DNA from: Nakamurella sp. A5-74
GTDB taxonomy: Bacteria; Actinomycetota; Actinomycetes; Mycobacteriales; Nakamurellaceae
Reading direction: 5' to 3'
Assembly (NCBI RefSeq): GCF_040438885.1
Contig: NZ_CP159218.1
Location: 4,340,001-4,404,000 of the forward strand
Length of the DNA: 64,000 bases
How positions within the stretch are numbered: position 1 is the first letter of the stretch; each line of letters begins with the position of its first letter. The notes under the pieces were generated by a model. The model was not told the DNA's origin and ran no database searches. It saw only the letters and a program-made list of their open reading frames with translations. This document shows positions 1,973 through 62,311 of this stretch, piece after piece. A program made the translations under genes and the position numbers.

Positions 1973-3061
1973 TCAGATCGCCTGCGGCGCAGCAGGTTCG
2001 GTCGCCAGGAACGCCGTGATCTCGCGGGCCGCGGCGCGTCCGGCCCGGTTGGCTCCGATGGTCGACGCGCTCGGCCCGTAGCCGACGAGGTGGATCCGCG
2101 GGTCGGCGACCACCCGGGTCCCGTCCATCGCGATCCCGCCGCCCGCGCCGCGCAGGTGCAGCGGCGCCAGGTGATCGAGTGACGCCCGAAAGCCGGTGTT
2201 CCAGAACAGCATGTCGGCGTCGAAGCGGGAACCGTCCGCCCACTGCACCCCGTCGGCATCGATGGAGGTGAACATCGGAAACCGTTGCAGCACACCTGAT
2301 TCCCGCGCAGTCCTGGTCGCGGCGGTCAGTGGCAGCCCGGTCACCGAGACCACCGATCTGGGCGGCAGTCCGCGGCGCACGCGCTCCTCGACCATCGCCA
2401 CCGCCGCCCTCCCCGCCTCCTGGGTGAACTTTCGCTCCAGCCACACCGGCGGGCGCCTGGTCACCCAGCGTTGAGCGGCGACCACGGGCGCGATCTCCAT
2501 CGCGAGCTGCACGGCCGAGATCCCGCCGCCGATCACCACCACCCGCGCACCGCGGACGTCCGCCGGTCCGCGGTAGTCGTGAGTGTGCAGCTGCCGGCCG
2601 GCGAAGCTCTCCCTGCCCGGGTAGTACGGCCAGAACGGCGCGTCCCACGTCCCGGTGGCGTTGACCAGGATCCGGCTGACGTACTCCACCTCGCGCCCGT
2701 CCGCCGCCGATCCGGTGGATCGCAGTCGCCCGTCGTCCAGGGACTCGACCCGCCCGATCCGTACCGGTCGCCGCACATCGATGCCCTGGTCGCTCTCATA
2801 GTGTTCGAACCAGGCCGGGATCGCCCTGTTGGCCGGCTCCCGAGGATCAGCCTGTGGCGGCGTCGTCCCCGGGAGCTCGCGGATGCCGTTGACCCCGGCC
2901 ATCGTCAACGTGTCCCACCGGTGTCGCCAGGCACCACCCGGCCCTTCGCCCGCGTCGACGACGATCGTGTCGATCCCGCTGCGGTACAGATGATGAGCAG
3001 TGGACAGCCCGGCCTGCCCGGCGCCGATCACCAACACATCAGTCACCAACACGTCGGTCAT
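1973..3061 (-). CDS. NAD(P)/FAD-dependent oxidoreductase (flavin-containing monooxygenase-like)
   Basis: A 362-residue two-dinucleotide-domain flavoprotein. The FAD-binding Rossmann motif VLVIGAGQAGLS is near the N terminus, and an NAD(P) motif VVVIGGGISAVQ lies mid-protein. A C-terminal LVGYGPSASTIGANRAGR segment resembles the FAD-binding end of this superfamily. Such proteins hydroxylate or oxidise small substrates in the cytoplasm; the substrate is unknown. The start is uncertain: the frame is open to 3112, and a 15-nt unit encoding (V/M)TD(V/A)L is tandemly repeated at 3032-3076, giving several candidate GTG/ATG starts. The ATG at 3061 is used here. Divergent from the next flavoprotein. 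Confidence 0.8.
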   Translation of the reverse strand: MTDVLVTDVLVIGAGQAGLSTAHHLYRSGIDTIVVDAGEGPGGAWRHRWDTLTMAGVNGIRELPGTTPPQADPREPANRAIPAWFEHYESDQGIDVRRPVRIGRVESLDDGRLRSTGSAADGREVEYVSRILVNATGTWDAPFWPYYPGRESFAGRQLHTHDYRGPADVRGARVVVIGGGISAVQLAMEIAPVVAAQRWVTRRPPVWLERKFTQEAGRAAVAMVEERVRRGLPPRSVVSVTGLPLTAATRTARESGVLQRFPMFTSIDADGVQWADGSRFDADMLFWNTGFRASLDHLAPLHLRGAGGGIAMDGTRVVADPRIHLVGYGPSASTIGANRAGRAAAREITAFLATEPAAPQAI

Positions 3062-3159
3062 CAGCGCGTCAGTCACCGGGGCGTCCCTGACCTGCCCGTC
3101 CTCCACCAGCACCAGGCCAGGCTACGACGGCGCAGCGATCCGGAGTCGCACCCGTCACA

Positions 3160-4869
3160 ATGGCAGGTATGAGCCCCGACACCCCCGGCCGAGCGTCCGG
3201 GTCCGCCGACAGCATCCTGGATTGTGACGTGCTGGTGATCGGAGCGGGCCTGGCGGGGCTGGTCGCCGCCGCCGAGGCGGCCGACAGCGGCAAGCGGGTC
3301 GTCGTGGTCGACCAGGAGCCGGGTGCCTCGTTGGGCGGCCAGGCGTTCTGGTCGTTCGGGGGGTTGTTCCTGGTCGACTCGCCGGAGCAGCGGCGGATGG
3401 GAATCAAGGACTCCGCCGAGCTGGCCCTGGCCGACTGGCTCGGTTCCGCCGGCTTCGACCGGCCGGAGGACCACTGGCCGGAGCAGTGGGCCCACGCCTT
3501 CGTCGACTTCGCCGCCGGCGAGATGCGCAGCTGGATCAAGCAGCAGGGCATCGGCCTGTTCCCGATCGTCCAATGGGCGGAGCGGGGCGGCTATCCCGTC
3601 ACTCCCGGCGGCACCATGCACGGCAACTCGGTGCCGAGGTTCCACGTCACCTGGGGTACCGGGCCGGGTGTCGTCACACCGTTCGTCCGCCGGGTCACCG
3701 AACACGCGCGGATCGGCCGGACCACGCTGCTGTTCCGGCACCGGGTCACCGATCTGAGCCGTGCCGACGGGGCGGTCACCGGCGCGGTCGGCGAGGTACT
3801 CGCGCCGTCCGACGTCGCTCGAGGTGTGCCGTCGTCCCGGGACGTGATCGGTAGCTTCACGATCACCGCAGGCGCGACGATCGTCGCCTCCGGGGGGATC
3901 GGGGCGAACCACGAACTGGTGCGCAGGAACTGGCCAGGCGGCCACGGCGGGGCACCGCGGACGATGATCTCCGGCGTGCCGGATTCCACCGACGGTCTGA
4001 TGATCGGACACGCGGCCAGGGCAGGCGCCCACGTGATCAACGAGGACCGGATGTGGCACTACCCCGAGGGCATCATCAACCACTCGCCGGTATGGACGGA
4101 ACACGGCATCCGAATCCTGGCCGGCCCCACGTCCCTCTGGTTGGACGCCTCCGGTCACCGTTTGCCGGCCCCGCTGTACCCGGGCTTCGACGCCCTCGGC
4201 ACCGTCCGGCACATCACTGCGACCGGGCACGGACACAGCTGGTTCGTGTTGAACCGCAGCATCATCGGGCCGGAGTTCGCCCTGTCCGGATCCGAACAGA
4301 ACCCCGACCTGACAGACCGCTCGGTCATCCAGCTGGCCAAGGCCAGGCTCGGCTCCGGCCCGACCCCGGCTGTGCAGAGATTCCTGGACGACGGGGTCGA
4401 CTTCGTCGCCGCCGAGACCGTCGAGGAGCTGGTGTCGAAGATGAACGCCCTGGTCGGTGAGGATCTCGTCGACCCCGCGCTCGTCGCGGAGACCGTCCGC
4501 CTGCGCGACCTGCAGGTGTCGTCGGGACTCGGCAAGGATCCGCAGGTGACCGCGGTGGCGGCGGCCAGGAGGTTCTTCGGGGACCGCTGGATGCGGCTGG
4601 CCGACGACTGCGCGCTGGCCGACCCCGCGCACGGTCCGTTGATCGCCGTCCGACTGCACATCCTGACCCGCAAGACGCTGGGCGGCGTGGAGACCGACCT
4701 CGACGGGCGGGTGCTCGACCCCTTCGGACAGGTGATCCCAGGGCTGTACGCGGCAGGTGAAGCGGCGGGATTCGGCGGCGGCGGCGTGCATGGATACCGG
4801 GCGCTGGAGGGCACCTTCCTCGGCGGCTGCCTGCTCTCCGGGCGTACCGCCGGACGCGCGGTCGGGTGA
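3160..4869 (+). CDS. FAD-binding dehydrogenase (fumarate reductase/3-ketosteroid dehydrogenase-like)
   Basis: A 569-residue flavoprotein of the FAD_binding_2 group. It has an N-terminal CDVLVIGAGLAGLVAAAEAA FAD motif followed by VVVVDQE. Mid-protein stretches such as GGTMHGNSVPRFHVTWGTGPGV and ASGGIGANHELVRRNWPG are typical of actinobacterial 'FAD-binding dehydrogenase' proteins. The C-terminal PGLYAAGEAAGFGGGGVHGYRALEGTFLGGCLLSG segment closes the FAD site. Members carry out alpha,beta-dehydrogenation or reduction on lipid- or steroid-like substrates; this one's substrate is unknown. A second ATG at 3169 is equally plausible as the start. No partner gene follows directly. Confidence 0.88.
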   Translation: MAGMSPDTPGRASGSADSILDCDVLVIGAGLAGLVAAAEAADSGKRVVVVDQEPGASLGGQAFWSFGGLFLVDSPEQRRMGIKDSAELALADWLGSAGFDRPEDHWPEQWAHAFVDFAAGEMRSWIKQQGIGLFPIVQWAERGGYPVTPGGTMHGNSVPRFHVTWGTGPGVVTPFVRRVTEHARIGRTTLLFRHRVTDLSRADGAVTGAVGEVLAPSDVARGVPSSRDVIGSFTITAGATIVASGGIGANHELVRRNWPGGHGGAPRTMISGVPDSTDGLMIGHAARAGAHVINEDRMWHYPEGIINHSPVWTEHGIRILAGPTSLWLDASGHRLPAPLYPGFDALGTVRHITATGHGHSWFVLNRSIIGPEFALSGSEQNPDLTDRSVIQLAKARLGSGPTPAVQRFLDDGVDFVAAETVEELVSKMNALVGEDLVDPALVAETVRLRDLQVSSGLGKDPQVTAVAAARRFFGDRWMRLADDCALADPAHGPLIAVRLHILTRKTLGGVETDLDGRVLDPFGQVIPGLYAAGEAAGFGGGGVHGYRALEGTFLGGCLLSGRTAGRAVG

Positions 4870-5252
4870 CGCCGCGGAATGCAGGCGCCGGGTGTCGGAT
4901 GCACAGCAGATGAACACCCGCAGCAACACCACAGCGGCTCAGAAGTTCACCCAGACAGGCGATCATCCATACCGATCGGGCGGTTGTGGCTTCCACGCCT
5001 TCGCTCCGTAGTTGATGTTCGACGACAAGCCCGCTGATTGTCCTCTTTCGCCGTGCCTCATCCGCACTCGCGCCCGCGAGTGGCGGACCTGCGTCACACA
5101 CCGTTGCCGCCACCTGCGGAAACGCCGGTCACGGTTCGATAACCCCACGACACCAAGCCCCACACTTGAGACGTCGGTATCTGTACAGAGCGGTTGCCGC
5201 GGGATCTGGACGCAATCAGGCGTCCGGTGGCAGTCGGAGGGTTCGAGGGGTC
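4870..5252. other. 383-bp intergenic region with one hairpin
   Basis: No convincing gene was seen. An inverted repeat at 5061-5087 has a perfect core of 8-nt arms (5065-5072 and 5075-5082) with flanking pairs around a one-base bulge. It could be a terminator for the dehydrogenase or a regulatory hairpin for the downstream hydrolase. The A/T-richer stretch near 5130-5190 probably holds the hydrolase promoter, but no clear -35/-10 pair can be named. Confidence 0.5.
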
Positions 5253-6311
5253 ATGACGCAGGTTGCTCGTCCGGTCGATGTTTCGGGGGAATCAGACGGG
5301 ATGTACCAGCACGCCTCCCCCACCTCCACGTCACTCGGCGACGTCTCGCTGAGCTGGCCGTCCCTGGCGTCGGCCGTCCCGGATTCCCTGGAAGATCTGC
5401 CGCCCGACGCAGCTCCCCTGGTGGCACCGCCCAGGGTGCGTCCGTTCGCGGGGATCAGGTTGGTCGACGGACGCGCACTGGCCTGGGCCGAGTACGGCAA
5501 CCCCCGTGGAGTGCCGTGCATCGTGGTCCCGGACACCGCCTCCTCCAGGCTGTCCCCCGGATGGATGATGCACGAGCTCACTCTGCCCGAGTCCGTACGG
5601 CTGCTGTCGATCGACCGACCTGGCATCGGCCGGTCCGATCCGGTCGGCCTGGGCGGCCGGGACGACCTGGCCGCCGACATCCTGATGATGATCCACACCC
5701 TCGCCGTCGGACGGGTCGTGATGGTCGGCGTCGGATCAGGTGCGAGCATCGCACTGGACGTCGCCGAGCGGAGCCCGCGAGCCGTCAGCCGGGTGGTCGC
5801 CGTGGCCGCTCGTGGTACTGCGGAGCCGGCCGCGCCCCGAGCGCGCCGCTCGCTGTTGCGCCGCAGTTCCGGCACCACGCAGTCCTGGCGCGGTCCGCTC
5901 GAGGCCTGGGCACGGGCCGCCGCCGGAGAGCAGCTCACCGACGAGCGCGCCTGGACCCGGGCGCGCGGTCGGATGGACGACCGAGCACTCTCGGCGCTCG
6001 GCGGCCGGTGGCTCGCGCCCTCCTTCCGCGCCGCGGTGTCGGCCGATCTCGACGAGGTCGGGAGCCAGTGGATCGCCGACGGCGGCAGCCCTGCGCCCCG
6101 CTGGGTGGGCTCGTGGGCCGGCGCGTCGGAGGTGCAGTTCATCCAGGCTGACGACGATCTCGGCACCACTCCGGGGCAGCTTCGTGCCATCGCGGCCGAA
6201 CGGGCCGGGTGGAGTGTCCGTACCGCACCGACGGCCGACAAGCTGTTCGCCCGCTGGCCGGCGGTGCTCGGCGACGCCGCGGCGCACTACCTGGAGACCG
6301 CGTACCGCTGA
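5253..6311 (+). CDS. Alpha/beta-fold hydrolase
   Basis: A 352-residue protein whose central part has the alpha/beta hydrolase layout: an oxyanion-loop strand (GVPCIVVPDTASSR), SVRLLSIDRPGIGRSDP, and a nucleophile elbow VMVGVGSGASIALDVAE, where the serine sits in a VGSGA context rather than the usual GxSxG. About 75 residues rich in Ser and Pro precede the domain. The start at 5253 has gagggg upstream; an in-frame ATG at 5301 is an alternative. It ends about 90 bp before the histidine kinase, so it could be co-transcribed with it, though the kinase appears to have its own leaderless promoter. The substrate is unknown. Confidence 0.75.
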   Translation: MTQVARPVDVSGESDGMYQHASPTSTSLGDVSLSWPSLASAVPDSLEDLPPDAAPLVAPPRVRPFAGIRLVDGRALAWAEYGNPRGVPCIVVPDTASSRLSPGWMMHELTLPESVRLLSIDRPGIGRSDPVGLGGRDDLAADILMMIHTLAVGRVVMVGVGSGASIALDVAERSPRAVSRVVAVAARGTAEPAAPRARRSLLRRSSGTTQSWRGPLEAWARAAAGEQLTDERAWTRARGRMDDRALSALGGRWLAPSFRAAVSADLDEVGSQWIADGGSPAPRWVGSWAGASEVQFIQADDDLGTTPGQLRAIAAERAGWSVRTAPTADKLFARWPAVLGDAAAHYLETAYR

Positions 6312-6405: not shown

Positions 6406-7602
6406 ACGTTTCGAGAGTTCTGGGCCCAGAACGTGTGGGCGCGCGATGCGGCGATCCCCGCCGTGTTGCTCATCCTCGCCCTCGCGACCGCAGCCCAGGG
6501 CGGCGGCACCACCCTGTTCTCGATGCTGTTGATCGCACCGTTGTTCTGGCGGCGGTCGTTCCCGGAGACCGTCACCGTGATCGTCGCCGCCCTGGCGCTG
6601 GTCCAGGTCGCGGTGGGTTACCGATACCAGGTCGGCGACCTCGCGGTCCCGCTGGTCGTGCACGCGGCGACCGCGTACGCGCGCAACCGCCGCTGGGGCT
6701 GGAGCGCGCTGCTGCTGGGGTTGTTGGGCGCCGCCATCTCCTCGGTGGCGTTCTTCGGATTCGACGATCCACGAGGCGCGCTGACCAACGGCGCCATCAC
6801 CGCCACCACCGTTGCCGTCGCCTTCCTGGTGGGTCGACAACAGGAGACCCACGCCCGGGACTCCGCCGCTGCCGTGGCGGAGCGGGACCGGCTGCTGCAG
6901 GAACAGCAGATCCGGCGCAGCGAGATGGCCGCGGCCCAGGAACGCACCCGGATCGCGCGGGAACTGCACGACATCGTGGCGCACTCGCTGTCGGTGGTCG
7001 TCGTCCAGGCCGAGGGCGGGCGCGCTGCGGCCAGGACCAAGCCGGAGCTCGCACCGGAGGTGCTGGCCACCATCGCCGGTACCGCGCGGGCCGCTCTGGG
7101 CGACATGCGGCGACTCGTCGGGGTGTTGCGCACCGGCGGCGAACCGGAATCCAGCCATCCGGACTTCGCGCCGGCGCCCACGCTGGGAGACGTCGCCGAC
7201 CTGGTCGCCCAGGTCAGCGCCGCTGGGCAACGGGTGCAGCTGCAGATCACCGGCGAGGAACGCCCGGTACCGCCGGGTGCCGGTCTGGCCGCGTATCGGC
7301 TGGTCCAGGAGTCGTTGACCAACGTCATCAAACACGCCGGTTCGAGCGCGAGCACCGAGGTCAACGTGCACTACGCACCGGGCGAGGTCCACGTCTCGGT
7401 GTTGGACGACGGCCGGGGTGCGGCCGCGGCCGGTGACGGTCAGGGCAACGGCCTGATCGGGATGCGTGAGCGGGTCACCCTGCAGGGCGGAACCGTTGCC
7501 GCCCACGCCCGCTCCGGCGGCGGCTTCATCGTCACCGCGACGATCCCGACCCCCCAGCAGGGCGCTCTGGCCGCCGCCGATCCCGCCGGGAACCACCGAT
7601 GA
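6403..7602 (+). CDS. Two-component sensor histidine kinase (HisKA_3 type)
   Basis: A 399-residue membrane kinase. The first about 145 residues hold four to five hydrophobic segments. A cytoplasmic coiled region follows, then the HisKA_3 dimerisation/phosphoacceptor motif RIARELHDIVAHSLSVVVVQ, where the first His of HDIVAHS is the likely phosphosite. The ATP-binding domain has an N box (LVQESLTNVIKHA), a DDGRG motif and GNGLIGMRERV. This is the NarX/DesK-like architecture that pairs with LuxR-type regulators. Its stop overlaps the regulator's start by 4 bp (ATGA), so the two are translationally coupled. The signal is unknown. A start at ATG 6367 is possible, but the GTG with its -10 is preferred. 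Confidence 0.92.
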   Translation: MTFREFWAQNVWARDAAIPAVLLILALATAAQGGGTTLFSMLLIAPLFWRRSFPETVTVIVAALALVQVAVGYRYQVGDLAVPLVVHAATAYARNRRWGWSALLLGLLGAAISSVAFFGFDDPRGALTNGAITATTVAVAFLVGRQQETHARDSAAAVAERDRLLQEQQIRRSEMAAAQERTRIARELHDIVAHSLSVVVVQAEGGRAAARTKPELAPEVLATIAGTARAALGDMRRLVGVLRTGGEPESSHPDFAPAPTLGDVADLVAQVSAAGQRVQLQITGEERPVPPGAGLAAYRLVQESLTNVIKHAGSSASTEVNVHYAPGEVHVSVLDDGRGAAAAGDGQGNGLIGMRERVTLQGGTVAAHARSGGGFIVTATIPTPQQGALAAADPAGNHR

Positions 7603-51191: not shown

Positions 51192-53600
51192 TCATGATTC
51201 GACCGCTGTCGCAGCCGCGGCGGCCCGAAGGCCGTGCAGCAGTGAGGGATTGAGCGGCATGGCCGAGATCCGCATACCAAGGGCGTTCTCGACGGCGGAG
51301 GCGATCACCGCGGCGACCGGGATGACGCCGGCCTCCCCGGCCCCCTTGATCCCCAACGGGTTCAGCGGGGACGGCGTCTGCTGGTGACCGAGTTCGAGTT
51401 GCGGGATCTCGGTCACGTAGGGCATCAGGAAGTCCATGAACGAAGCGTTCTGCAGCTGGCCGTGCTCGTCGTACGCCATGATCTCGTACAGCGCGCCGCC
51501 GATGCCCTGGGCAACGCCACCGTGCACCTGACCCTCGACGATCATCGGGTTGATCAGGTTGCCGCAGTCGTGCACCACGCAGTACTTCTCGATCCTGATC
51601 TCGCTGGTCTCGTCGTCGATCTCGACGATCGCGGCATGCATACCGGAGGCGAAGGTCGACCGCGGCGGGGAGTAGTAGTCCTTGCCCTCCAGACCCGGTT
51701 CGCGGCCCGCGGGGACCGGCGGCACCGACGGATCGGTCGGTCGAGCGAACTGGGTCGCGGCCTTCGCGGCCTCGTCGAAGGCGTACCGCAGCGGGTTCGA
51801 CAGCACCGCGACCTGCCCGAGCGGGATCGACACGCTCGGGTTGCCCTTCATCGACACGACCCCGTCCTCGATCTGGAGGTCGTCCGCACTGCACTCCAAG
51901 GTGTCTGCCGCAACCTCCAGTGCCTTGGCACGGGTCTTGCGGGCGGCGAGCGCCACAGCGGACCCGGACATCACGGCAGCCCGCGAGGCGAACGTGCCGA
52001 CGGCGTGGCCGAAACGGCGAGTGTCGCCGGTGACCACCCTGATCTTCTCGAACGGCACCCCCAGCTCGTCAGCGACGATCTGGGCGAACACCGTCTGATG
52101 CCCCTGCCCCTGACTGGTGAGCCCGATCGCCACATCGACCGTGCCGTCCGTCTGCACCTGGATGTGCGCGCCCTCGTACGGCCCCGGTCCGGTTCCTTCT
52201 ACGTAGCAACCGATTCCGATGCCCAACCGCCGGCCGTCGACTGCCGCCGCTGCCTGCAGGGCGTCGAAGGAGTCCCAACCGATCATCTCCTTGAGCATCG
52301 TCAGCTGGTCCGGATAGTTGCCCGAGTCGTAGATCAGCGGGCGCCCGTCCTGGAAGATCAGCCCGTGGTCGTAGGGGAACTCGTCCGGCTGGATGAAGTT
52401 CGCCGAACGCACTGCGGTGCGGTCCATCCCCAGCGTCTCGGCGATCCGGTCCATCGTCCGTTCCATCACGAACACACCCTGCGGCCGGCCGGCGCCGCGG
52501 TACGGGGTGACGATCACCGTGTTGGTGTAGACGGAGGAGAACTCGACCCGGTAGGCGCCAGGTTTGTACGGCCCGAGCAACTGGGTGGACGTGACGATCG
52601 GGCAGATGATGCCGTACGGGGTGAACGCGCCGTTGTCGTGCCAGAAGGTGACGTCGAGTCCCAGAACCCTTCCGGCGTCATCGAATCCGACCCGGACCTC
52701 GTGTTGCTGAGCGCGCTCGTGCGAGGAGGAGATGAAGTGCTCGCGGCGATCCTCCGTCCACTTGACGGGCCGCTGCAGCTGCCGGGCAGCGAACGGCACC
52801 ATGATCTCCTCGGGCCACGGATGCATGATCTTGACCCCGAAACCGCCACCCACGTCGGGTGCGATCACCTCGACCTTGCCCAGCTGCATGCCCAACTTCG
52901 CGGCGATCGCCGCCCGCACACTGGTCGAGGTCTGGGTGGAGGAATACACCCGCAGCGATTGGTCGTCGACGTCGTACCGCGCCCGAACAGCTTTGCCCTC
53001 CAACGGCATCGAGCACGAACGCTCGATCTCGAGCGTGTACTCCAACACGTGCGGGGCGGCCGCGATGGCAGCTCGGGCATCACCCGATTCCTGCACGAGG
53101 TGGGCGGACACATTGTCCGGGACATCCGGATGCACCAAGTGGTGCGCTGCGCGCGCGGCAGTCAGCCCGATCACCGGCGGTAGGAATTCGTAGCTGACCC
53201 CGATCGCCGCGACCGCATCCTCGGTGATGTACCGATCGGTGGCGACCACCATCACGATCGCCTCACCCACGTGCCGGACGACGTCCTTGGCGAGGGGGTG
53301 GTTGGTCCGCGGCGCGTGCAGCGCGGGGTGCGGGATGAGCACCGGAAGAGGCTCTGCCGCAGCACCTTCCAGGTCTTCGTAGGTGTAGATGGCGATGACG
53401 CCGTCGATCTCGATCGCGTCGCTGACGTCGATATCCACGATCCGGGCGTGCGCGTGCGGTGAGCGCAGGAACGCCGCCTCGAGGGTCAGCAGCCCCTCCG
53501 CCGAACCGGCCCCGATGTCGTCGGTGTACCGACCGCGGCCGGTGACCAACCGCAGGTCCTCGGTCCGCTTGACCGGCGCGCCGAAGTAGCGGGTGGCCAT
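51192..53600 (-). CDS. Molybdenum hydroxylase large subunit (xanthine dehydrogenase/CoxL form II type)
   Basis: An 802-residue molybdopterin-binding subunit. It begins MATRYFGAPVKRTEDLRLVTGRGRYTDDI, the CoxL/CutL N terminus. It includes PDVGGGFGVKIMHPWPEE, the cofactor-loop TPYRGAGRPQGVFVMERTMD, LTSQGQGHQTVFAQIVADELG and the C-terminal NPLGIKGAGEAGVIPVAAVI with the catalytic Glu. The active-site loop has RGAGR rather than the RCSFR of true CO dehydrogenases, so it is a form II-like or other aldehyde/purine/aromatic hydroxylase. It is last of a three-gene set overlapping by 1 bp each. Confidence 0.93.
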   Translation of the reverse strand: MATRYFGAPVKRTEDLRLVTGRGRYTDDIGAGSAEGLLTLEAAFLRSPHAHARIVDIDVSDAIEIDGVIAIYTYEDLEGAAAEPLPVLIPHPALHAPRTNHPLAKDVVRHVGEAIVMVVATDRYITEDAVAAIGVSYEFLPPVIGLTAARAAHHLVHPDVPDNVSAHLVQESGDARAAIAAAPHVLEYTLEIERSCSMPLEGKAVRARYDVDDQSLRVYSSTQTSTSVRAAIAAKLGMQLGKVEVIAPDVGGGFGVKIMHPWPEEIMVPFAARQLQRPVKWTEDRREHFISSSHERAQQHEVRVGFDDAGRVLGLDVTFWHDNGAFTPYGIICPIVTSTQLLGPYKPGAYRVEFSSVYTNTVIVTPYRGAGRPQGVFVMERTMDRIAETLGMDRTAVRSANFIQPDEFPYDHGLIFQDGRPLIYDSGNYPDQLTMLKEMIGWDSFDALQAAAAVDGRRLGIGIGCYVEGTGPGPYEGAHIQVQTDGTVDVAIGLTSQGQGHQTVFAQIVADELGVPFEKIRVVTGDTRRFGHAVGTFASRAAVMSGSAVALAARKTRAKALEVAADTLECSADDLQIEDGVVSMKGNPSVSIPLGQVAVLSNPLRYAFDEAAKAATQFARPTDPSVPPVPAGREPGLEGKDYYSPPRSTFASGMHAAIVEIDDETSEIRIEKYCVVHDCGNLINPMIVEGQVHGGVAQGIGGALYEIMAYDEHGQLQNASFMDFLMPYVTEIPQLELGHQQTPSPLNPLGIKGAGEAGVIPVAAVIASAVENALGMRISAMPLNPSLLHGLRAAAAATAVES

Positions 53601-54154
53601 CAGTGCTCCACCCCCGCAGCACCGTGTCCGGCCGGGCCACCGGGCGTGTCGTCCCCCGCGGCGTACCGGGCCGCGGTCAGCACTGCCTCGACGATGTTCT
53701 GATATCCGGTGCAGCGGCACAGGTTTCCCGCGATCATGTCGACGGCCTCGTCGCGGGTGGGCGTCGGGTTCTCGGCGATGCCGGCGGTGATCGTGGTGAG
53801 GAAGCCCGGCGTGCAGAATCCGCACTGCAGAGCGTGACAGTCCCGGAACGCCCGCTGCACCGGGCCCAGCTCCGTAACCGTGTCCGGCTGGCCGAGACCC
53901 TCGACGGTCGTGACGTCGTGACCCTGCGCGCTGACCGCCAACACCAGGCAGGAGCGCACGGGGTCGCCGTCGATCAGCACGGTGCACGCGCCGCAGACGC
54001 CGTGCTCACAGCCGACGTGCGTACCGGTCAGACCCAGGTCGTGGCGGACGAAATCGGACAGCGTCCGCCGGGGCTCGGCGTCGGCGGTGCGCGCCACACC
54101 GTTGACCGTGACCGTCACCGGCAGACGTCGACCGGCCGGTCTGCTCTCCGTCAT
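53600..54154 (-). CDS. Molybdenum hydroxylase 2Fe-2S subunit (CoxS/CutS type)
   Basis: A 184-residue iron-sulfur subunit. The N-terminal plant-ferredoxin cluster is GCEHGVCGACTVLIDGDPVRSC. The C-terminal helical domain cluster is ALQCGFCTPGFLTTI plus GNLCRCTGYQNIVEAV. It carries electrons between the molybdenum centre and the FAD subunit. Its start overlaps the FAD-subunit stop and its stop overlaps the large-subunit start, each by 1 bp. The C-terminal tail is longer and Gly/Ala-rich compared with typical 160-residue members. Confidence 0.96.
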   Translation of the reverse strand: MTESRPAGRRLPVTVTVNGVARTADAEPRRTLSDFVRHDLGLTGTHVGCEHGVCGACTVLIDGDPVRSCLVLAVSAQGHDVTTVEGLGQPDTVTELGPVQRAFRDCHALQCGFCTPGFLTTITAGIAENPTPTRDEAVDMIAGNLCRCTGYQNIVEAVLTAARYAAGDDTPGGPAGHGAAGVEH

Positions 54155-55035
54155 CAACCGGCCCGCAGCTCGGGGACGCTCCGGGCTTTCGCGATGGCGG
54201 TGCGGGCGACCCGCGCCGTCAGCACCCCGGCGAGCGAGCGGCGGTACTCGGCAGTGGCGTGGATGTCCGACGACGGGTCGACCCCGACGCGCGCGAGCTC
54301 GACGGCGGCGCGCTCCGAGTCGTTCCAGGCATCGGTCAACTCCAGCACCAGCGGCACCTCCGACACCGACAGGTAGCCGCAGCGCAGGCTCAGGAGTGCA
54401 CCGCCGGCGTCCACCCTGGCGATCGCAGCCACTCCACACAGGGCATAGTCGCCGTGCCTGCGGGCGATCTCGGCGAACGCAGTGCCGCTCGTCGTCCCTG
54501 GCTCCCTGACGGTGCCGGGGAAGTGCGCCGAGACCACCAGCTCGTCCGGAGCCAGGGTCGACTCGAGCGGTCCGACAAAGAAGTCCGCGGCGGCGATGGT
54601 GCGTGCCCCCCGGGTCGACTGAGCCGTGATGCTCCCGCCGAGGAGCGCCAGCACGCTCGTCATCTCACCCGAAGGGTCGGCATGGGCCAGCGAACCGACG
54701 GTGGTCCCGCGGTTCCGAATGGTGGCGTGGGCGACGCAGCTGAGGGCTTGCGGAATCAGCGGTTGCGCATTGCCTGCCGCAGGATGCCGAAGCAGCCCGG
54801 TGTGCCGGACCAGCGCGCCGATGGTGACGCCGGAGGCGTCGACGGTGATCGTGTCGAGCCCCTCGACGGCGTTGATGTCGACCAGGTGGGCCGGGGCGGC
54901 CAGTCGCATGGCGAGCACCGGCAGCAGCGACTGCCCGCCGGCCAGCACCTTGCCCTCGCTGCCGACCTCGCCGAGCACCGCGATCGCCTCGTCGACGGAC
55001 CGGGGCCCGTGCCAGGTGAACGGGGGCGGCTTCAT
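54154..55035 (-). CDS. Molybdenum hydroxylase FAD subunit (CoxM type)
   Basis: A 293-residue FAD-binding subunit. It starts MKPPPFTWHGPRSVDEAIAVLGEVGSEGKVLAGGQSLLPVLAMRLAAPAHLVDIN, with the AGGQSLLP flavin-phosphate motif. The second motif TIRNRGTTVGSLAHADPSGEM is also intact. The C-terminal CO-dehydrogenase flavoprotein domain begins about residue 180. It transfers electrons to the acceptor, perhaps quinone if CoxG docks the complex. It is the first gene of the operon; the promoter lies in the 190 bp shared with the divergent retron locus. Confidence 0.95.
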   Translation of the reverse strand: MKPPPFTWHGPRSVDEAIAVLGEVGSEGKVLAGGQSLLPVLAMRLAAPAHLVDINAVEGLDTITVDASGVTIGALVRHTGLLRHPAAGNAQPLIPQALSCVAHATIRNRGTTVGSLAHADPSGEMTSVLALLGGSITAQSTRGARTIAAADFFVGPLESTLAPDELVVSAHFPGTVREPGTTSGTAFAEIARRHGDYALCGVAAIARVDAGGALLSLRCGYLSVSEVPLVLELTDAWNDSERAAVELARVGVDPSSDIHATAEYRRSLAGVLTARVARTAIAKARSVPELRAG

Positions 55036-55226
55036 CTCCCCGATCCTGCCCCACGAGCCCCTCTGCTGTACGGCACGAACTGCCACGGAATGGGCGATTC
55101 TTCGGTCACAGCTGACGTCCGGATCACCATCAGCGCGGCCCGTGGCCGATGGGGTGAGCGCCGGAGGAGAAGGTGACCGTCGCTGGGCGCTCCCGCAGGG
55201 CGTCCACTTCACGACACACTGCTGGG

Positions 55227-55259
55227 ATGGACCAGGACGAGGATCGCATCGATGCCTGA
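55227..55259 (+). CDS. Ten-codon upstream ORF overlapping the next gene
   Basis: ATG at 55227 opens a frame encoding MDQDEDRIDA and stops at 55257-55259, overlapping the start of the 196-aa gene (ATG 55252) by 8 nt. CACACT sits 6 nt before its ATG, matching the leaderless-start pattern seen across the window. It may couple translation into the downstream gene. No family; supported by position only. Confidence 0.35.
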   Translation: MDQDEDRIDA

Positions 55260-55842
55260 CCCCCGCATCCGCTGGGTGGGCCCGACGCACGTCGAGATCG
55301 ACGTCGGGTGGCACGGCGACATCGTGATCGACGAGCACGGCATCAGGCAGCGCGGACGCCACGTCCGATGGGCGGAGCTGCACTCGATCCATCCGGCCGC
55401 CGTCCGCGGCCAGGTGACCCTGATCGTGCGCACCGACCGGCGCCGGGGAAGCAGAGAGCTCGCGCTCGGTCGCGGTGGGCCGGATCCCCACGAGGTGCGG
55501 GCGGCGCTCCTCGCCGTCGCCGATGCCGCCGGCATCGAGTTCCCCGAGGAGCACTGGCTGGAACGGACGCTCGACCTGGCCGGAGGCCTCCGCACCGACA
55601 CCACGGGCGCGGATGCCGTGCGCACCGCGGCCCGGGGCACGGTCTGGTACCTCGACCGTGAACCCGAGATCAGCGACACGGCCTTCGCGCTCAGCGCCCG
55701 GGTGGAGGTCGACCCGGAGGTACCCGCCGCCGAGCGGGCCGACTGGGCGATGGCCCGTGGTGGCGAAAGCGTGGCCGGCCTCACCGCCCTCGGACAACTC
55801 GGACCGATTCGGTGGCGAAGGACGCAGACGATCCGGGACTGA
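55252..55842 (+). CDS. Hypothetical protein with PH-like N-terminal half, retron-linked
   Basis: A 196-residue soluble protein of no recognised family. The first about 100 residues alternate short strands and end in a helix (IRWVGPTHVEIDVGWHGDIVID, RHVRWAELHSIHPAAV, VTLIVRTDRRRGSRELALG, PHEVRAALLAVADAAGIEF), reminiscent of a bacterial PH-like domain. The rest is probably alpha/beta with several Trp. The gene ends at the first base pairs of the structured region preceding the reverse transcriptase and lies on the same strand, so it could be part of the retron unit as accessory protein. That role is inference; it might equally be an unrelated neighbour. Confidence 0.6.
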   Translation: MPDPRIRWVGPTHVEIDVGWHGDIVIDEHGIRQRGRHVRWAELHSIHPAAVRGQVTLIVRTDRRRGSRELALGRGGPDPHEVRAALLAVADAAGIEFPEEHWLERTLDLAGGLRTDTTGADAVRTAARGTVWYLDREPEISDTAFALSARVEVDPEVPAAERADWAMARGGESVAGLTALGQLGPIRWRRTQTIRD

Positions 55843-55843
55843 T

Positions 55844-56161
55844 CCGCCGTGACGGTGTTCGCACGAGTCGAGGATCTTCGGTCACAGATCATGCCCACGC
55901 GGTTCGCGGGGCATCGTTCCGCGGTCATCCCGCCGTGGCATGGTGGGTCGATGCGGCGGTGCGGACGAGAACGTCGGCCGGAGACGGCCCGACCGCTCCG
56001 GGGTACCCCCGGGGTGCGCACAGTGCAGTTGGCACCACCGAGCAGGCACCCCATCTGCGCTCCGCGCAGGACGGTGCCCGCCCAGCAGGGATCGGTCGCC
56101 CAGCACCGCCGCATGCCATTCCCGTCCAGCCGGAGGACACCGCAGCCGGACCTCGCGGCGG
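55844..56161 (+). ncRNA. Candidate retron msr-msd non-coding RNA
   Basis: This stretch between the upstream gene and the reverse transcriptase can fold into a chain of stems: 55891-55914 (atgccc/gggcat plus cgcg/cgcg), 55930-55959 (ccgcc..gcat with atgc..ggcgg, 3-nt bulge), 55973-55993, 55998-56012, 56011-56052 (ggggtgc/gcacccc), 56055-56069 (ctgcgc/gcgcag, 3-nt loop) and 56072-56108 (cggtgc/gcaccg). A 9-bp long-range pairing (55844-55852 with 56153-56161, one G-U) brackets all of them, like retron a1/a2, and ends 4 nt before the reverse transcriptase ATG. No conserved priming AGC was identified. Boundaries are provisional. The reverse transcriptase frame stays open through here, so a coding extension is the rival reading. 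Confidence 0.5.
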
Positions 56162-56165
56162 CCCC

Positions 56166-57494
56166 ATGACCTCGAACAATGCTCAGCGGCTCGCGACCAC
56201 GCTGGCGGACGCCGCACTGGCCGGTGACTGGGACGCTGACCACCTGCGACTGAGCCTGTTCCGCGTGGTGGGGCGACGTCGGGCCTGGCTCAGGGACCTG
56301 GCCGCGGAACTACTCGAGGCCCATCCACGGCCCCCCGCGGACCGCCCCCGCGAGCTGGCCATGTTCATCCTGGCCAGCGCCGCATTCGAGCGCGCCCGAG
56401 TGGCGCCACGACCGCTCCCCGTTCCGAAACTCGTGCTGCCGGCGCCCACCTCGACCGTCCATCGGCCGTTCCGCACCCCCCGCATCGACGATGCGGGCGC
56501 ACTGGCCGACCTGCTGGGCATCACCATCGCGGAACTCGACGCCCACGCCGACACCCGTCTCCGCGCGCGCCGGGCCCGATCGGCCGGGATCGCCCACTAC
56601 CGCTACGAGTGGGTCAAGCGGTCGGCGGGTGCGCGGCTGCTCGAGGTGCCGAAACCACGGATGAGGACCTGCCACCGACAGATCCTCGACGAGGTACTCG
56701 CCCCCATCCCGGTGCATCCCGCCTGCCACGGATTCGTCCTGGGGCGGTCGGCGATCACCGGCGCTCGCGAGCACGTGGGCGCCCAGTTGGTGGTGACCTT
56801 GGATCTGGAGCACTTCTTCGCTTCGGTGACCGCAGCCCGGGTCTGGGGGGTGCTGCGTGCCGCCGGCTACCCGGAACCGGTGGCCCACCTGTTGACCGGA
56901 CTCACCACCCACGCCACCCCGGTGGCCGTTCTCACGACCATGCCTGCCGGGCGGGACCCGTCGCGCGACTTCCGTCTTCGTCGCCGACTGGCCGCGCCCC
57001 ACCTGCCGCAGGGTGCCTCGACCTCCCCTCAATTGGCCAATCTGGTCCTGTTCCCGCTCGACCGCCGGCTCGCTGCACTCGCCGAGTCCGCCGGGGCCAC
57101 CTACACCCGCTACGCCGACGATCTGACGTTCTCCGGAACCCGACATGCACTGCGCGGCAATGCCTCTGGCCTGATCGCCGCCGTCGGCCGGATCGTGCGT
57201 GAGGAGGCGTTCCGGGTGCACCCCGACAAGACCCGCGTTCGACACGCACATGAACGGCAGAGCGTCACCGGGATCGTGGTCAACCAGCGCACCAACGTCG
57301 CCCGCAGTGAGTACGACCAGGTGAAAGCGGTGCTGCACGAGGCACGGCAGCGCGGTCCCGGCGCGGCGAACAGGACCGGACAGCCAGACTTCCGCGCCCA
57401 CCTGCTGGGCCGGATCTCCTGGATCGCCTCCACCAACTCGGACCGCGGAGCGCGCCTCCGCGCGAGCTTCGAAGCCGTCGACTGGTCTGTCTGA
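56166..57494 (+). CDS. Retron-type reverse transcriptase with N-terminal extension
   Basis: A 442-residue reverse transcriptase. The fingers-palm core starts near residue 140: HYRYEWVKRSAGARLLEVPKPRMR, HGFVLGRSAITGAREHVGA (where retron enzymes have NAxxH), VVTLDLEHFFASV (first Asp, D213), LPQGASTSPQLANLVL (280-295) and the catalytic YTRYADDLTFSG (YADD 316-319). The thumb contains SVTGIVVN (367-369), the VTG triplet of retron enzymes. There is no maturase/X or endonuclease domain, so it is not a group II intron protein. About 135 residues precede the core (helical, Arg/Ala-rich), an arrangement I associate with myxobacterial retron enzymes. The upstream DNA is a candidate msr-msd. The biological role, probably anti-phage defence, is inferred. 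Confidence 0.9.
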   Translation: MTSNNAQRLATTLADAALAGDWDADHLRLSLFRVVGRRRAWLRDLAAELLEAHPRPPADRPRELAMFILASAAFERARVAPRPLPVPKLVLPAPTSTVHRPFRTPRIDDAGALADLLGITIAELDAHADTRLRARRARSAGIAHYRYEWVKRSAGARLLEVPKPRMRTCHRQILDEVLAPIPVHPACHGFVLGRSAITGAREHVGAQLVVTLDLEHFFASVTAARVWGVLRAAGYPEPVAHLLTGLTTHATPVAVLTTMPAGRDPSRDFRLRRRLAAPHLPQGASTSPQLANLVLFPLDRRLAALAESAGATYTRYADDLTFSGTRHALRGNASGLIAAVGRIVREEAFRVHPDKTRVRHAHERQSVTGIVVNQRTNVARSEYDQVKAVLHEARQRGPGAANRTGQPDFRAHLLGRISWIASTNSDRGARLRASFEAVDWSV

Positions 57495-57584: not shown

Positions 57585-59063
57585 TCAGCCCTCCTTGCCG
57601 CGAGCCTCCTTCACCGGTCGCCCGGAATCGTCCACGACGTCGCCGGTGGAGATCGCTGCTCCGCCGACGTAGCTCTTGCCGCCACCGAGGGGTTCCTTGA
57701 GCTCCTGCGGCGCGAGCCAGCGGGCGAGGTGGTAGCCGACGATCGTCACGATGGTGCCGAGCGCGATACCACTGAGGGCGAACTGCGAGCCGAAACCCAT
57801 CGTGACGTTGCCGATGCCGCAGATGATCCCGGCGGCGATCGGGACCAGGTTGACCGGATTGCCGAAGTCGACCCGGTTCTCCTTCCAGATCTTGGCGCCC
57901 AACAGGCCGATCATCCCGTAGAGCACCACGGTGATCCCGCCGAGCACACCACCCGGGGTCGCGTTGACGATGGCACCGAACTTCGGTACCAGCCCCAACA
58001 GGATCGCCACGATCGCCGCCACGTAGTAGGCCGCCGTCGAGTAGACCCGGGTCGCCGCCATCACGCCGATGTTCTCGGCGTAGGTGGTGGTCGGCGACCC
58101 GCCGAAGGCGGAGGCGATCGTGGTGCCGAGGCCGTCGCCGAAGAGCGCGCGACCCATGTACGGGTCCAGGTCCTCGCCGGTCATCTCGGCGACCGCGCGG
58201 ACGTGGCCGGTGTTCTCCGCGATGAGCGCGATGACGCCGGGCAGCGCGAGCAGGATGAAGTTCACCCCGAACGTCGGCGCGTGCATGGTCGGCAGTCCGA
58301 ACCAGTCGGCCGCACCGACACCGCTCAGGTCGACCCGGTCGTGGGCGAAAGGTGTTGCCACGCAGTAGGGACCGGCGGCCGCACACTTCTCACCCGCCTG
58401 GTTCAACAGGCCCTGGCCCGGCAGCACAGAGGTGATCTGGCCGAAGACGCCATCGAAGAGCCACGACAGCAGATACCCGAAGATGAGCGCCAGGAAGATC
58501 GCGATCCGCGACCAGAAGCCGCGGAACGCGACCGCCGCGATGATCGTGAAGAGCGCCGTCAGCAGGGCGACCGTCATGTCCTGGGGCCAATAGGTGTTGG
58601 CCACCACCGGCGCCAGGTTGAAGCCGATCAGCAGCACGACAGCACCCGAAACCACCGGCGGCAGCAGGTTTCTGATCACCCGGGCTCCGACGAAGTGCAC
58701 GATCAGGCCGACGATCGCCAGCACGACACCGGCCACCAGGATGGCTCCGGTGACGCTTCCGTTGTCGCCGCCGGCGGCCCGGATCGCGACCACGGCACCG
58801 ACGAAGGAGGCTGAGGTGCCCAGATAGCTGGGGATCTTGTTCTGCACCACCAACAAGAAGATGATCGTGCAGACGCCGGAGAACATGATGGCCAGGTTCG
58901 CGTTCAGGCCCATGATCAACGGGAACACGAAGGTCGCCCCGAACATCGCCACGATGTGCTGGGCACCGATGCCGATCGTCTTCGGCCAACTCAGGCGTTC
59001 GTCCGGCTTGACCACCGATCCGGGCGGGGCATCACTGGGAACCACTTTCCAACCGAATGCCAT
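57585..59063 (-). CDS. Uracil/xanthine permease (NCS2 family)
   Basis: A 492-residue nucleobase:cation symporter with about 12-14 helices. It begins WPKTIGIGAQHIVAMFGATFVFPLIMGLNANLAIMFSG. The NCS2 signature region is present with IALIAENTGHVRAVAEMTGEDLDPYMGRALFGDGLGTTIASAFGGSPTTTYAENIGVMAATRVYS, containing the substrate-binding Glu and the helix 10 motif. An extracellular insertion holds two Cys (GEKCAAAGPYC). It imports uracil or xanthine. It faces the retron gene end-on and may once have adjoined the molybdenum hydroxylase operon. Confidence 0.94.
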   Translation of the reverse strand: MAFGWKVVPSDAPPGSVVKPDERLSWPKTIGIGAQHIVAMFGATFVFPLIMGLNANLAIMFSGVCTIIFLLVVQNKIPSYLGTSASFVGAVVAIRAAGGDNGSVTGAILVAGVVLAIVGLIVHFVGARVIRNLLPPVVSGAVVLLIGFNLAPVVANTYWPQDMTVALLTALFTIIAAVAFRGFWSRIAIFLALIFGYLLSWLFDGVFGQITSVLPGQGLLNQAGEKCAAAGPYCVATPFAHDRVDLSGVGAADWFGLPTMHAPTFGVNFILLALPGVIALIAENTGHVRAVAEMTGEDLDPYMGRALFGDGLGTTIASAFGGSPTTTYAENIGVMAATRVYSTAAYYVAAIVAILLGLVPKFGAIVNATPGGVLGGITVVLYGMIGLLGAKIWKENRVDFGNPVNLVPIAAGIICGIGNVTMGFGSQFALSGIALGTIVTIVGYHLARWLAPQELKEPLGGGKSYVGGAAISTGDVVDDSGRPVKEARGKEG

Positions 59064-59277
59064 GACGGATCCTCCTGGTCGAGGCGATGCACGGACCACT
59101 GAGCGGCCACGCCGGTGCTGGTGCTGTGGCAACCGGCGACCGCCGGTGGGTTGCGCGAACGCTAGCGCTGCACTGAACCGGACGGGCGGGTGGAATCTGC
59201 CAGATTCGGCTGTCCGGCGTTGTGGAGTCCACGCATCGGCCGCGCGTGCAGTCGCACTCCGGCGCGAGCCGAACGGA

Positions 59278-60123
59278 TCAGGCCTGCAGCACCGGCGCCA
59301 GCACGAGCGAGTCGCGGTGCGCTGCCTCCCCCACCGGCGAGAGATCGACCTGGTCCGCACCAGCGTCCAGGTACTCCTGCACACGACGCGCGATCGCACC
59401 CGTGTCGCCGTGGGCGGTGATCCCGTCGATCACCCTGTCGGACCGACCGTCGAGCTCCTCCGCGGTAAATCCACAGCGCAGCAGGTTCTGTCGATACCCG
59501 TTGACCTGCAACAGGAAATCCAGCATCGGGCGGAGTGCAGCCCGCCCCGACTCAGCGGTGCCGGTCAGTGCAACCGGCAGTGAGACCACGAGTGCCACTG
59601 CCTCGCCGAGCGCGGCCCGAGTGGTCCGCACCCAGTCGGCCGTGACGAGCAGCGGCACAGCTCCGAGTGCTCGCTCGGCAGCGAGTCGCAGCTTGACCGG
59701 GCCCAGCGCAGCCAGGATGCGGCGATCAGCAGGAACTCCCGCACGGTCCAGCGAATCCAGGAACGCGCCGAGCTTCGCCAGCGCCCGCGACTGTTGCGGT
59801 CCACCGAGACCCACGAGGAATCGACCGGGATGGTGCTGCTCGGCGAGCCGGTACACCCGGATCACCTCGTCGGGACCGAAGACGTCCAGCGGAATGATCC
59901 CCGTCGCGATCACCGCTCGCTCGGTCGCCTGCAGGAGCTCCAGCACGAGATCGAGGGAGTGCAGACTCCCGCCGGCGATCCACAGCGCGCCGTAGCCGGC
60001 GGTCGCCAACTGCTGTGCCCGCTCGCCGTGCCGACCGTCTGTCCCGATGTCGACCGTGACCCCGTGCGCACCCCCGATGTGCTGGGCGACGATGCGGGCA
60101 GGACGGGGTCCGGAGGCAGTCAT
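59278..60123 (-). CDS. F420-dependent luciferase-like oxidoreductase, TIGR03620 type
   Basis: A 281-residue TIM-barrel protein of the LLM class. LATAGYGALWIAGGSLHSLDLVLELLQATERAVIATGIIPLDVFGPDEVIRVYRLAEQHHPGRFLVGLGGPQ matches the F420-type barrel with the GLGGP cofactor loop. The C-terminal ITAHGDTGAIARRVQEYLDAGADQVDLSPVG is the usual barrel end. The short length and sequence fit the actinobacterial TIGR03620 group. The substrate is unknown. It is the second gene, 34 bp after a small hypothetical gene on the same strand. Confidence 0.87.
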   Translation of the reverse strand: MTASGPRPARIVAQHIGGAHGVTVDIGTDGRHGERAQQLATAGYGALWIAGGSLHSLDLVLELLQATERAVIATGIIPLDVFGPDEVIRVYRLAEQHHPGRFLVGLGGPQQSRALAKLGAFLDSLDRAGVPADRRILAALGPVKLRLAAERALGAVPLLVTADWVRTTRAALGEAVALVVSLPVALTGTAESGRAALRPMLDFLLQVNGYRQNLLRCGFTAEELDGRSDRVIDGITAHGDTGAIARRVQEYLDAGADQVDLSPVGEAAHRDSLVLAPVLQA

Positions 60124-60764: not shown

Positions 60765-60864
60765 GGTCATGAGTTCCGACGCGCAGCCCTGGCTGGTCGG
60801 ACGGCAACCCTCACGGATGTGGCGGGGTGCCCCAGGTGAGGACCCGGCACGAGCCCCTCGTGCA
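60765..60864 (+). ncRNA. SAM-binding riboswitch, SAM-IV (SAM-I/IV clan) type
   Basis: The sequence from ggtcatgag (60765) to gaggacc (ending 60844) matches the actinobacterial SAM aptamer pattern. P1 is ggtc (60765-60768) with gacc (60841-60844). Conserved blocks are ctggctggtcgg, acggcaaccctc and gcggggtgcccc. A perfect 7-bp hairpin gcacgag/ctcgtgc follows at 60847-60863, as expected for the extra 3' stem of SAM-IV. It lies 47 nt before the start of an O-acetylhomoserine sulfhydrylase gene, so high SAM would lower methionine synthesis, probably by occluding ribosome access. Confidence 0.87.
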
Positions 60865-60910
60865 AGCACACCCGTCCGCTGCGATGCGGCTCGTCAGGAA
60901 GACCGTTGAC

Positions 60911-62311
60911 ATGACTGCACCCACCCCCGACGCCGCGTCCGGGTTCGACACCCGGCAGATCCATGCGGGCGCCTCTCCCGATCGCAGCCACGGCTCCCGG
61001 ATCCCGCCGATCCACCTCACCGCCGGGTACGTGTTCGACAGTCACCAGCAGGCGCACGAGCGGTTCACCGGTGACGACACCGGCTACAGCTACTCCCGGC
61101 TGGGCAACCCGACCGTCGGCGTCGTCGAGCAGCGACTGGCAGACCTCGAGGGCGGGACCGACGCGATCCTGCTCGCCTCGGGTGCTGCGGCGACGAACGT
61201 GGCCCTGCTCGCGCTACTGGGTGCGGGCGATCACTTCTTGTCCTCCAGGGCGCTGTACCAAGGCACGGCCAACCTGTTCACAGAGAACTTCGCCCGATTC
61301 GGGATCGAGGTCGAGTTCGTCGACCATCCGTCCGATCCCGACGACTGGGCGCGTCGGATCAGACCGACCACTCGCCTGTTGTTCGCGGAGCCCATTCCCA
61401 ACCCCACCAATGATCTGATCGACCTGGAGCTGGTGGCGGGCGTCGCACACCACCACGGTCTGCCGTTCGTCGTCGACAACACCCTGGCCACGCCGTATCT
61501 GCTGCGCCCGCTCGAGTGGGGGGCCGACGTGGTGATCCACTCCGCCTCGAAGTTCCTCACCGGTCAGGGCGCGGCATTGTCCGGCGTGGTCGTCAGCGGC
61601 GAGAGCTTCGACTGGGCCGCAGTTCCTGCACTGTTCCCACACCTCAACTCACCGTCTGCAGCGTTGCACGGCAAGAGCTTCACGCAGGTGCACGGCCGAC
61701 GGGCGTTCTCCGCGTATGCCCGTGACGTCGTCTCCGCCAGGACCGGCGCGACGGTCTCGCCGTTCAACGCGTTCCTGCTCCGGCAGGGCCTGGAGACGTT
61801 GTCGCTGCGGATGCGGCAGCACTCCCGCAACGCGCTCGCCGTGGCGCAGTGGCTCGACGACCGCTCCGAGGTGCTGTCGGTGGACCATCCGGGGTTGGCC
61901 TCGAACGCTTTCCACGCTCTCGCCCGGAAGTACTTGCCGGCCGGCCAGGGGTCGGTGTTCACCTTCACCGTGGCCGGCGGCGAGGCTGGTGCTGCCGCCA
62001 TCATCGGTGCGCTGCAGGTTTTCTCGCACATGACTCACATCGGCGACGTCCGCTCGCTGGTGCTGCACCCGTCGTCCACCACGCACTGGCTGCTCGACGA
62101 CGCCGAGCGCACCCGACTCGGCATCCACGCCGGCACCATCCGCGTCTCCGTCGGGACCGAGGATGCCCGAGATCTGTTGGACGATCTGCAGCAGGCGTTC
62201 GACTCCGTCGCGCTGACTGAGCTCGGAATCGTTCAGTGGCAGAGCTTTCCAACCACGGATGCCGCGTCCTCGGTGGCGTCCGCGCAGTTCGCCGAGGTCA
62301 GCGCCCCGTGA
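60911..62311 (+). CDS. metY: O-acetylhomoserine sulfhydrylase / Cys-Met metabolism PLP enzyme
   Basis: A 466-residue type I PLP enzyme that condenses O-acetylhomoserine with sulfide to homocysteine. It begins FDTRQIHAGASPDRSHGSRIPPIHLTAGYVF. The PLP-phosphate loop ASGAAATNVAL, the Asp of VVDNTLATPYLLRPLEWGADVVIHSASKFLTGQGA, and the Schiff-base Lys in that last stretch are intact. YSYSRLGNPTVGVVEQRLADLEGG is typical. Controlled by the SAM riboswitch upstream. aggaag provides the ribosome-binding site. A 4-bp overlap couples it to the monooxygenase. Confidence 0.92.
   Translation: MTAPTPDAASGFDTRQIHAGASPDRSHGSRIPPIHLTAGYVFDSHQQAHERFTGDDTGYSYSRLGNPTVGVVEQRLADLEGGTDAILLASGAAATNVALLALLGAGDHFLSSRALYQGTANLFTENFARFGIEVEFVDHPSDPDDWARRIRPTTRLLFAEPIPNPTNDLIDLELVAGVAHHHGLPFVVDNTLATPYLLRPLEWGADVVIHSASKFLTGQGAALSGVVVSGESFDWAAVPALFPHLNSPSAALHGKSFTQVHGRRAFSAYARDVVSARTGATVSPFNAFLLRQGLETLSLRMRQHSRNALAVAQWLDDRSEVLSVDHPGLASNAFHALARKYLPAGQGSVFTFTVAGGEAGAAAIIGALQVFSHMTHIGDVRSLVLHPSSTTHWLLDDAERTRLGIHAGTIRVSVGTEDARDLLDDLQQAFDSVALTELGIVQWQSFPTTDAASSVASAQFAEVSAP

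Follow-up and report, generated by a model that had tools for sequence, protein, structure and literature searches.

As general background and as described in several sources (PMC12548924, PMC9252829, PMC8934634, PMC4244168, PMC6868368, and PMC8867640), known retrons are linked to effector genes. PMC8867640 also mentions some retrons without a clear neighboring effector, so that a missing effector is not new in itself. The priming guanosine of retrons is positioned at the inner end of a1, mostly in the context TAGC and sometimes CAGA, CAGC, GAGC, or ACGC, according to PMC6868368. Retron Ec86, the structural reference for the locus described here, was solved together with its effector, as indicated by the title of the structure. 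The DRT2 and DRT9 systems are described as consisting of a reverse transcriptase (RT) and a structured noncoding RNA (ncRNA) without a separate effector gene. In addition, PADLOC contains the models RT_other (PDLC02949) and RT_outgroup (PDLC03740), which are protein models.

The window, a 64,000-nucleotide stretch of DNA from Nakamurella sp. A5-74 (contig NZ_CP159218.1, positions 4,340,001 to 4,404,000), encodes on its forward strand a retron-type RT of 442 amino acids (P0001, positions 56166 to 57494), with a Pfam match to RVT_1. RT_other (556 to 559 bits) and RT_outgroup (522 to 523 bits) matched the whole protein, its N-terminal domain included, as well as all 50 aligned members of the clade. 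Both scores were far above those of any numbered retron type, the closest of which by profile was type XIII (RT_XIII, 303 bits), which covered residues 104 to 438 only. In the AlphaFold model, with a mean pLDDT of 95.4, the 18 best fold matches in the PDB were retron RTs, with Ec86 in first position (TM-score of 0.83 by target length; sequence match with an E value of 2e-26). The protein contains the catalytic YADD, the VTG of region Y, which is shared with Ec86 and present in its exact form in 20 of the 50 members, and GAREH in region X. Compared to NAXXH, the A and the H of this motif are kept but not the N; the full NAXXH is present in 59% of retron-like RTs according to PMC4244168. Unlike Ec86, the RT possesses about 80 additional N-terminal residues, which form a five-helix domain (residues 1 to 80) that is variable yet present in most members and apparently absent from shorter proteins of about 355 amino acids, e.g., at loci L050 and L105. 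No Pfam family matched this domain, and the best hit of a PDB fold search had an E value of 1.8. A good ribosome-binding site was not seen at the ATG at position 56166. A phage origin of the RT was considered and rejected: 12 phage records matched, with about 20 to 30% identity among the ten matches listed, and 80 loci on viral contigs matched with at most 37%, mostly over the RT core.

Just upstream of the RT gene is a 164-nucleotide element at positions 55951 to 56114. The fold of positions 55950 to 56115 had an energy of −97.5 kcal/mol (z-score of −4.72), which was reached by none of 200 shuffled sequences. A simple motif search missed most of the related loci, and profiles were used instead. 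A total of 110 loci was gathered with the RT, 80 named loci plus 30 from the window’s own and related genomes; at least two of the 110 are one identical record (L019 and L091). Thirty elements, including that of the window, were aligned with MAFFT and served to build the covariance model R1; RNAalifold assigned 39 pairs to this alignment, 23 of them with double changes. In the window, R1 had one strong match of 118 bits at positions 55951 to 56114, followed by a second-best match of 14 bits. One element each was found in 97 of 100 loci and subsequently in all 10 remaining loci, or 107 of 110 in total, in hosts that include Actinomycetota, Burkholderiales, Acidobacteria, and Planctomycetes. The element was also present in three plasmid-borne relatives. 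It was not detectable by R1 at loci L061 and L071, and at the third locus without a nearby match, L088 of genome G010, it was situated 3.9 kb upstream of the RT gene. R1 gave no match at an E value of ≤1 in 80 viral loci whose RTs belong to other clades, and no Rfam family matched the element at an E value of ≤5.

The RNA and this RT clade kept nearly constant company. In 150 genomes, the window’s own included, an RT match with an E value of ≤1e-50 was present in 37, and the RNA was present in 35 of these. Of the remaining 113 genomes, only one contained the RNA, close enough to the end of a contig for the RT gene to be truncated (G065, contig C1, positions 142 to 310 on the reverse strand, 141 bases from the end of the contig where the RT gene would begin). 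The two genomes with the RT but without the RNA were G016 and G088, and the RT of G088 contains an internal stop. Copies of the RT that look broken, with split matches and an internal stop, were seen in G143 (contig C10, positions 297317 to 299994) and G088 (contig C79, positions 106383 to 107402), and G143 retained the RNA beside such a copy. At some loci, the system appears to be degenerating. With strict filters, the RNA was found in 4 of 396 sampled genomes of the phylum, which indicates a patchy distribution. In G010, the RNA (positions 6808 to 6982) and the RT gene (positions 1574 to 2929) are both on the reverse strand of L111, and between them are a SecB-like open reading frame (ORF) (positions 5339 to 5839; Pfam SecB below the cutoff) and one that was named by eye as ABC transporter-like (positions 3001 to 4818). 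L111 also carries another copy of the RNA, a weak one, at positions 5142 to 5291 (26.7 bits, E value of 0.0023).

The fold of the element was conserved. In an alignment of 97 elements, 94.7% of 3,763 cells were standard pairs and 34 of the 39 pairs had changed on both sides; the covariation score was 0.582, compared to 0.155 for shuffled alignments and 0.062 to 0.081 for slid partners. This alignment was fitted to the covariance model, and the unfitted alignment of 30 elements therefore matters: here, 93.4% of the cells were paired, 23 pairs had double changes, and the score was 0.394, compared to 0.148 for shuffled alignments and 0.071 to 0.112 for slid partners. All 16 modeled pairs of the outer stem had double changes in the 97 rows, and 12 of the 16 had them in the unfitted 30. 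A prediction of the a1/a2 duplex for each sequence, in which 45 of 99 duplexes were better than all 50 shuffles, over-extended the pairing in the GC-rich arms and was dropped in favor of the test on the alignments.

Judged at the level of its sequence, the element falls within the definition of a retron msr-msd, and its parts, all on the forward strand, can be assigned as follows. The 5′ arm of the outer stem, a1 (positions 55951 to 55968), pairs with the 3′ arm, a2 (positions 56096 to 56114), with one A-C mismatch in the window (55965/56099). Directly 3′ of a1, G55969 is the candidate priming (branching) guanosine; the layout of a1, a2, and the priming base agrees with that of Ec86. This base was a G in all 97 rows and preceded by an A in 93 of them; since 39 of the 97 rows were originally extracted with a GAG motif, the independent weight for this G rests on the other 58. 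With a slash marking the end of a1, the context is CGA/GA in the window (AGA), CGA/GC in elements from Dactylosporangium and Actinoplanes, and CAA/GC in those from Burkholderia; among the relatives, the triplets AGC, AGA, and AGG occur. The first stem-loop of the msr (positions 55973 to 55993) is variable in length and sequence, with 87.1% of the cells paired and double changes at all four modeled pairs. The second (positions 55997 to 56013) is a near-invariant UCCGGGG-loop-CCCCGGG hairpin with 99.7% of the cells paired and a GGGG/CCCC core that hardly varied in the 97 rows. It is followed by a linker (positions 56014 to 56041, with an invariant C56038), in or near which reverse transcription probably stops. 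Stem-loop 3 (positions 56042 to 56081) contains helices 5 to 8, in which 94 to 97% of the cells are paired and 11 of 12 pairs have changed on both sides, and is the probable msd hairpin. A conserved tail (positions 56082 to 56095), GGGACAGG in most relatives, may contain the start of the copied template; its last base directly before a2, G56095, was a G in all 97 rows. A promoter-like −10 hexamer, CATGGT (positions 55939 to 55944), ends 6 nucleotides before a1 and is a weak version of the TANNNT of the relatives. A TANNNT ending 2 to 16 nucleotides upstream of the element was present in 80 of 97 loci, the window not being among the 80, compared to 1.9% in control windows, and this fixed distance indicates that the transcript is likely to start at a1.

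Evaluation of this assignment needs to consider that the first-pass annotation had placed the retron arms further outside, with a1 at positions 55844 to 55852, a2 at positions 56153 to 56161, and the msr and msd across the whole interval. The proposed 9-bp pairing with one G-U does exist, between CCGCCGTGA and TCGCGGCGG. Of 500 dinucleotide shuffles, only one had a pairing of at least 9 bp within 12 nucleotides of both interval ends, whereas 6 and 45 had one within 30 and 60 nucleotides, respectively, and the three helices of at least 9 bp across the interval compare to a shuffle mean of 2.0, with as many in 22 of 60 shuffles. The outer pairing is weak evidence, and only its exact position is remarkable. 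The folding energy, named as a check, was exceptional for the inner element but not for the whole interval (positions 55840 to 56165, z-score of −1.85, 5 of 100 shuffles as good). DNA similarity to congeners extended from about 55930 to 55950 up to about 56115, and the flanks holding both outer arms could not be aligned among congeners; the pairing is not conserved in relatives. The compensatory changes looked for in homologous loci were present in the inner element, at the 34 pairs given above. The outer arms are outside the conserved element, and the 5′ arm is even upstream of the promoter-like position, leaving the outer bracket most improbable as a1/a2. What stood of the proposal was the general layout, a1 and a2 enclosing an msr and an msd in front of a retron RT. 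The absence of a clear branching-guanosine motif, noted for the outer arm, was explained by the position of a1: the motif is found where the actual a1 ends, at G55969, and reads AGC in several relatives. The reading frame of the RT is also open from position 55812 to 57494, which would give a protein of 560 amino acids with this stretch as an N-terminal coding extension. Codon periodicity in homologues had been named beforehand as the outcome that would speak against a structure, and the comparison came out in favor of structure: stops interrupt the RT frame in 44 of the 97 elements, and of 138 indel runs relative to the window, 121 have a length that three does not divide. The PADLOC profile matches begin at about the ATG at position 56166. 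A coding extension is thus refuted, with next to no probability left.

Two other explanations accept the conserved RNA but assign another function to it. It may serve as template or scaffold for a DRT-like defense RT that primes in another way, e.g., from a protein, and not be an msr-msd; the DRT2 and DRT9 layout of an RT with an upstream ncRNA fits the locus likewise. The RT families, however, differ by profile, with Drt2 at 31.4 bits (cutoff of 390) and Drt3a at 18.3 bits (cutoff of 200), and by fold, with retron RTs at ranks 1 to 18, DRT2 at rank 27, and DRT9, judged by fold rank only, at rank 31. Moreover, a1 and a2 with an invariant G at the end is the arrangement of a retron, which makes a DRT-like RNA unlikely. 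A leader that regulates the RT mRNA in cis and has no template function would agree with the position of the element on the same strand, 51 nucleotides before the RT start, but in G010 the distance of 3.9 kb, with other ORFs between, makes a leader function unnecessary, and the end of a1 carries the priming signature of a retron; this explanation is even less likely than a DRT-like RNA. Because of the conserved fold, its near-constant association with the RT clade, the invariant G after a1, and the retron-type RT, positions 55951 to 56114 very probably represent a retron msr-msd RNA, and positions 56166 to 57494 the gene for its RT.

The genomic context adds to this the missing effector. An all-against-all comparison of the ORF proteins of the 110 loci revealed no shared partner gene, and neither did three annotated loci; the only high-count families were the RT and its shadow frames. 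This comparison covered flanks of up to 5 kb, in some cases less, for the 80 named loci and up to 1.5 kb for the other 30, so that more distant partner genes would be missed. An ORF family occurring at 18 loci was rejected as a conserved neighbor, as neither its orientation nor its distance was constant. The ORF just upstream of the retron, P0002 (positions 55252 to 55842, forward strand, 196 amino acids), was rejected as the effector, having no relative in 40 other genomes searched and no family match; it may have a private role, since it is in the same inserted block. This block is flanked by genes on the reverse strand, those of a molybdenum hydroxylase (positions 51192 to 55054; large subunit, FAD subunit, and, named by eye, 2Fe-2S subunit), with the FAD subunit gene directly adjacent, and that of a xanthine/uracil permease (positions 57585 to 59399). 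In G003, G018, and G021, which are without the RT and the RNA, the flanking genes have the same order and orientation, and the gap between the matches to the FAD subunit and permease genes is 308, 187, and 44 bp, respectively, compared to 2,552 bp in the window. This empty site indicates that the block of P0002, RNA, and RT was inserted or was lost in the others. Further downstream, a SAM-IV riboswitch (positions 60765 to 60874, forward strand, 79.5 bits) overlaps the start of an ORF (positions 60827 to 62311) named by eye as sulfhydrylase-like and belonging to methionine synthesis.

Taken from its sequence, the locus is best read as a retron of an unnumbered clade without a linked effector gene, and known retrons suggest how it may work. 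The RNA would start at or near a1, which would pair with a2, and the RT would bind the msr hairpins and prime from the 2′-OH of G55969. Starting at about G56095, it would copy the RNA leftwards across stem-loop 3. The product would be a branched, RNA-linked single-stranded DNA. A role in phage defense would be expected by analogy only. Speculatively, the conserved N-terminal helical domain of the RT may itself act as the partner, or a partner may act in trans. A two-part retron, RT and msr-msd without a separate effector, may exist in several phyla, with the msDNA controlling the N-terminal five-helix domain as its partner or serving a job besides abortive phage defense; this proposal is tentative and could well be wrong.

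The new part appears to be the conserved RNA, which is without an Rfam match. The literature searched reported no ncRNA for this RT clade, which is weak evidence of novelty because the key retron classification paper was outside the search. For a clade that PADLOC names only “other” or “outgroup,” the locus provides a concrete candidate for the template RNA, the priming base, and the promoter position. As no effector gene travels with the clade, it offers a direct way to learn if a retron can function with no separate toxin, and a GC-rich actinobacterial msDNA system could serve the production of single-stranded DNA in such hosts.
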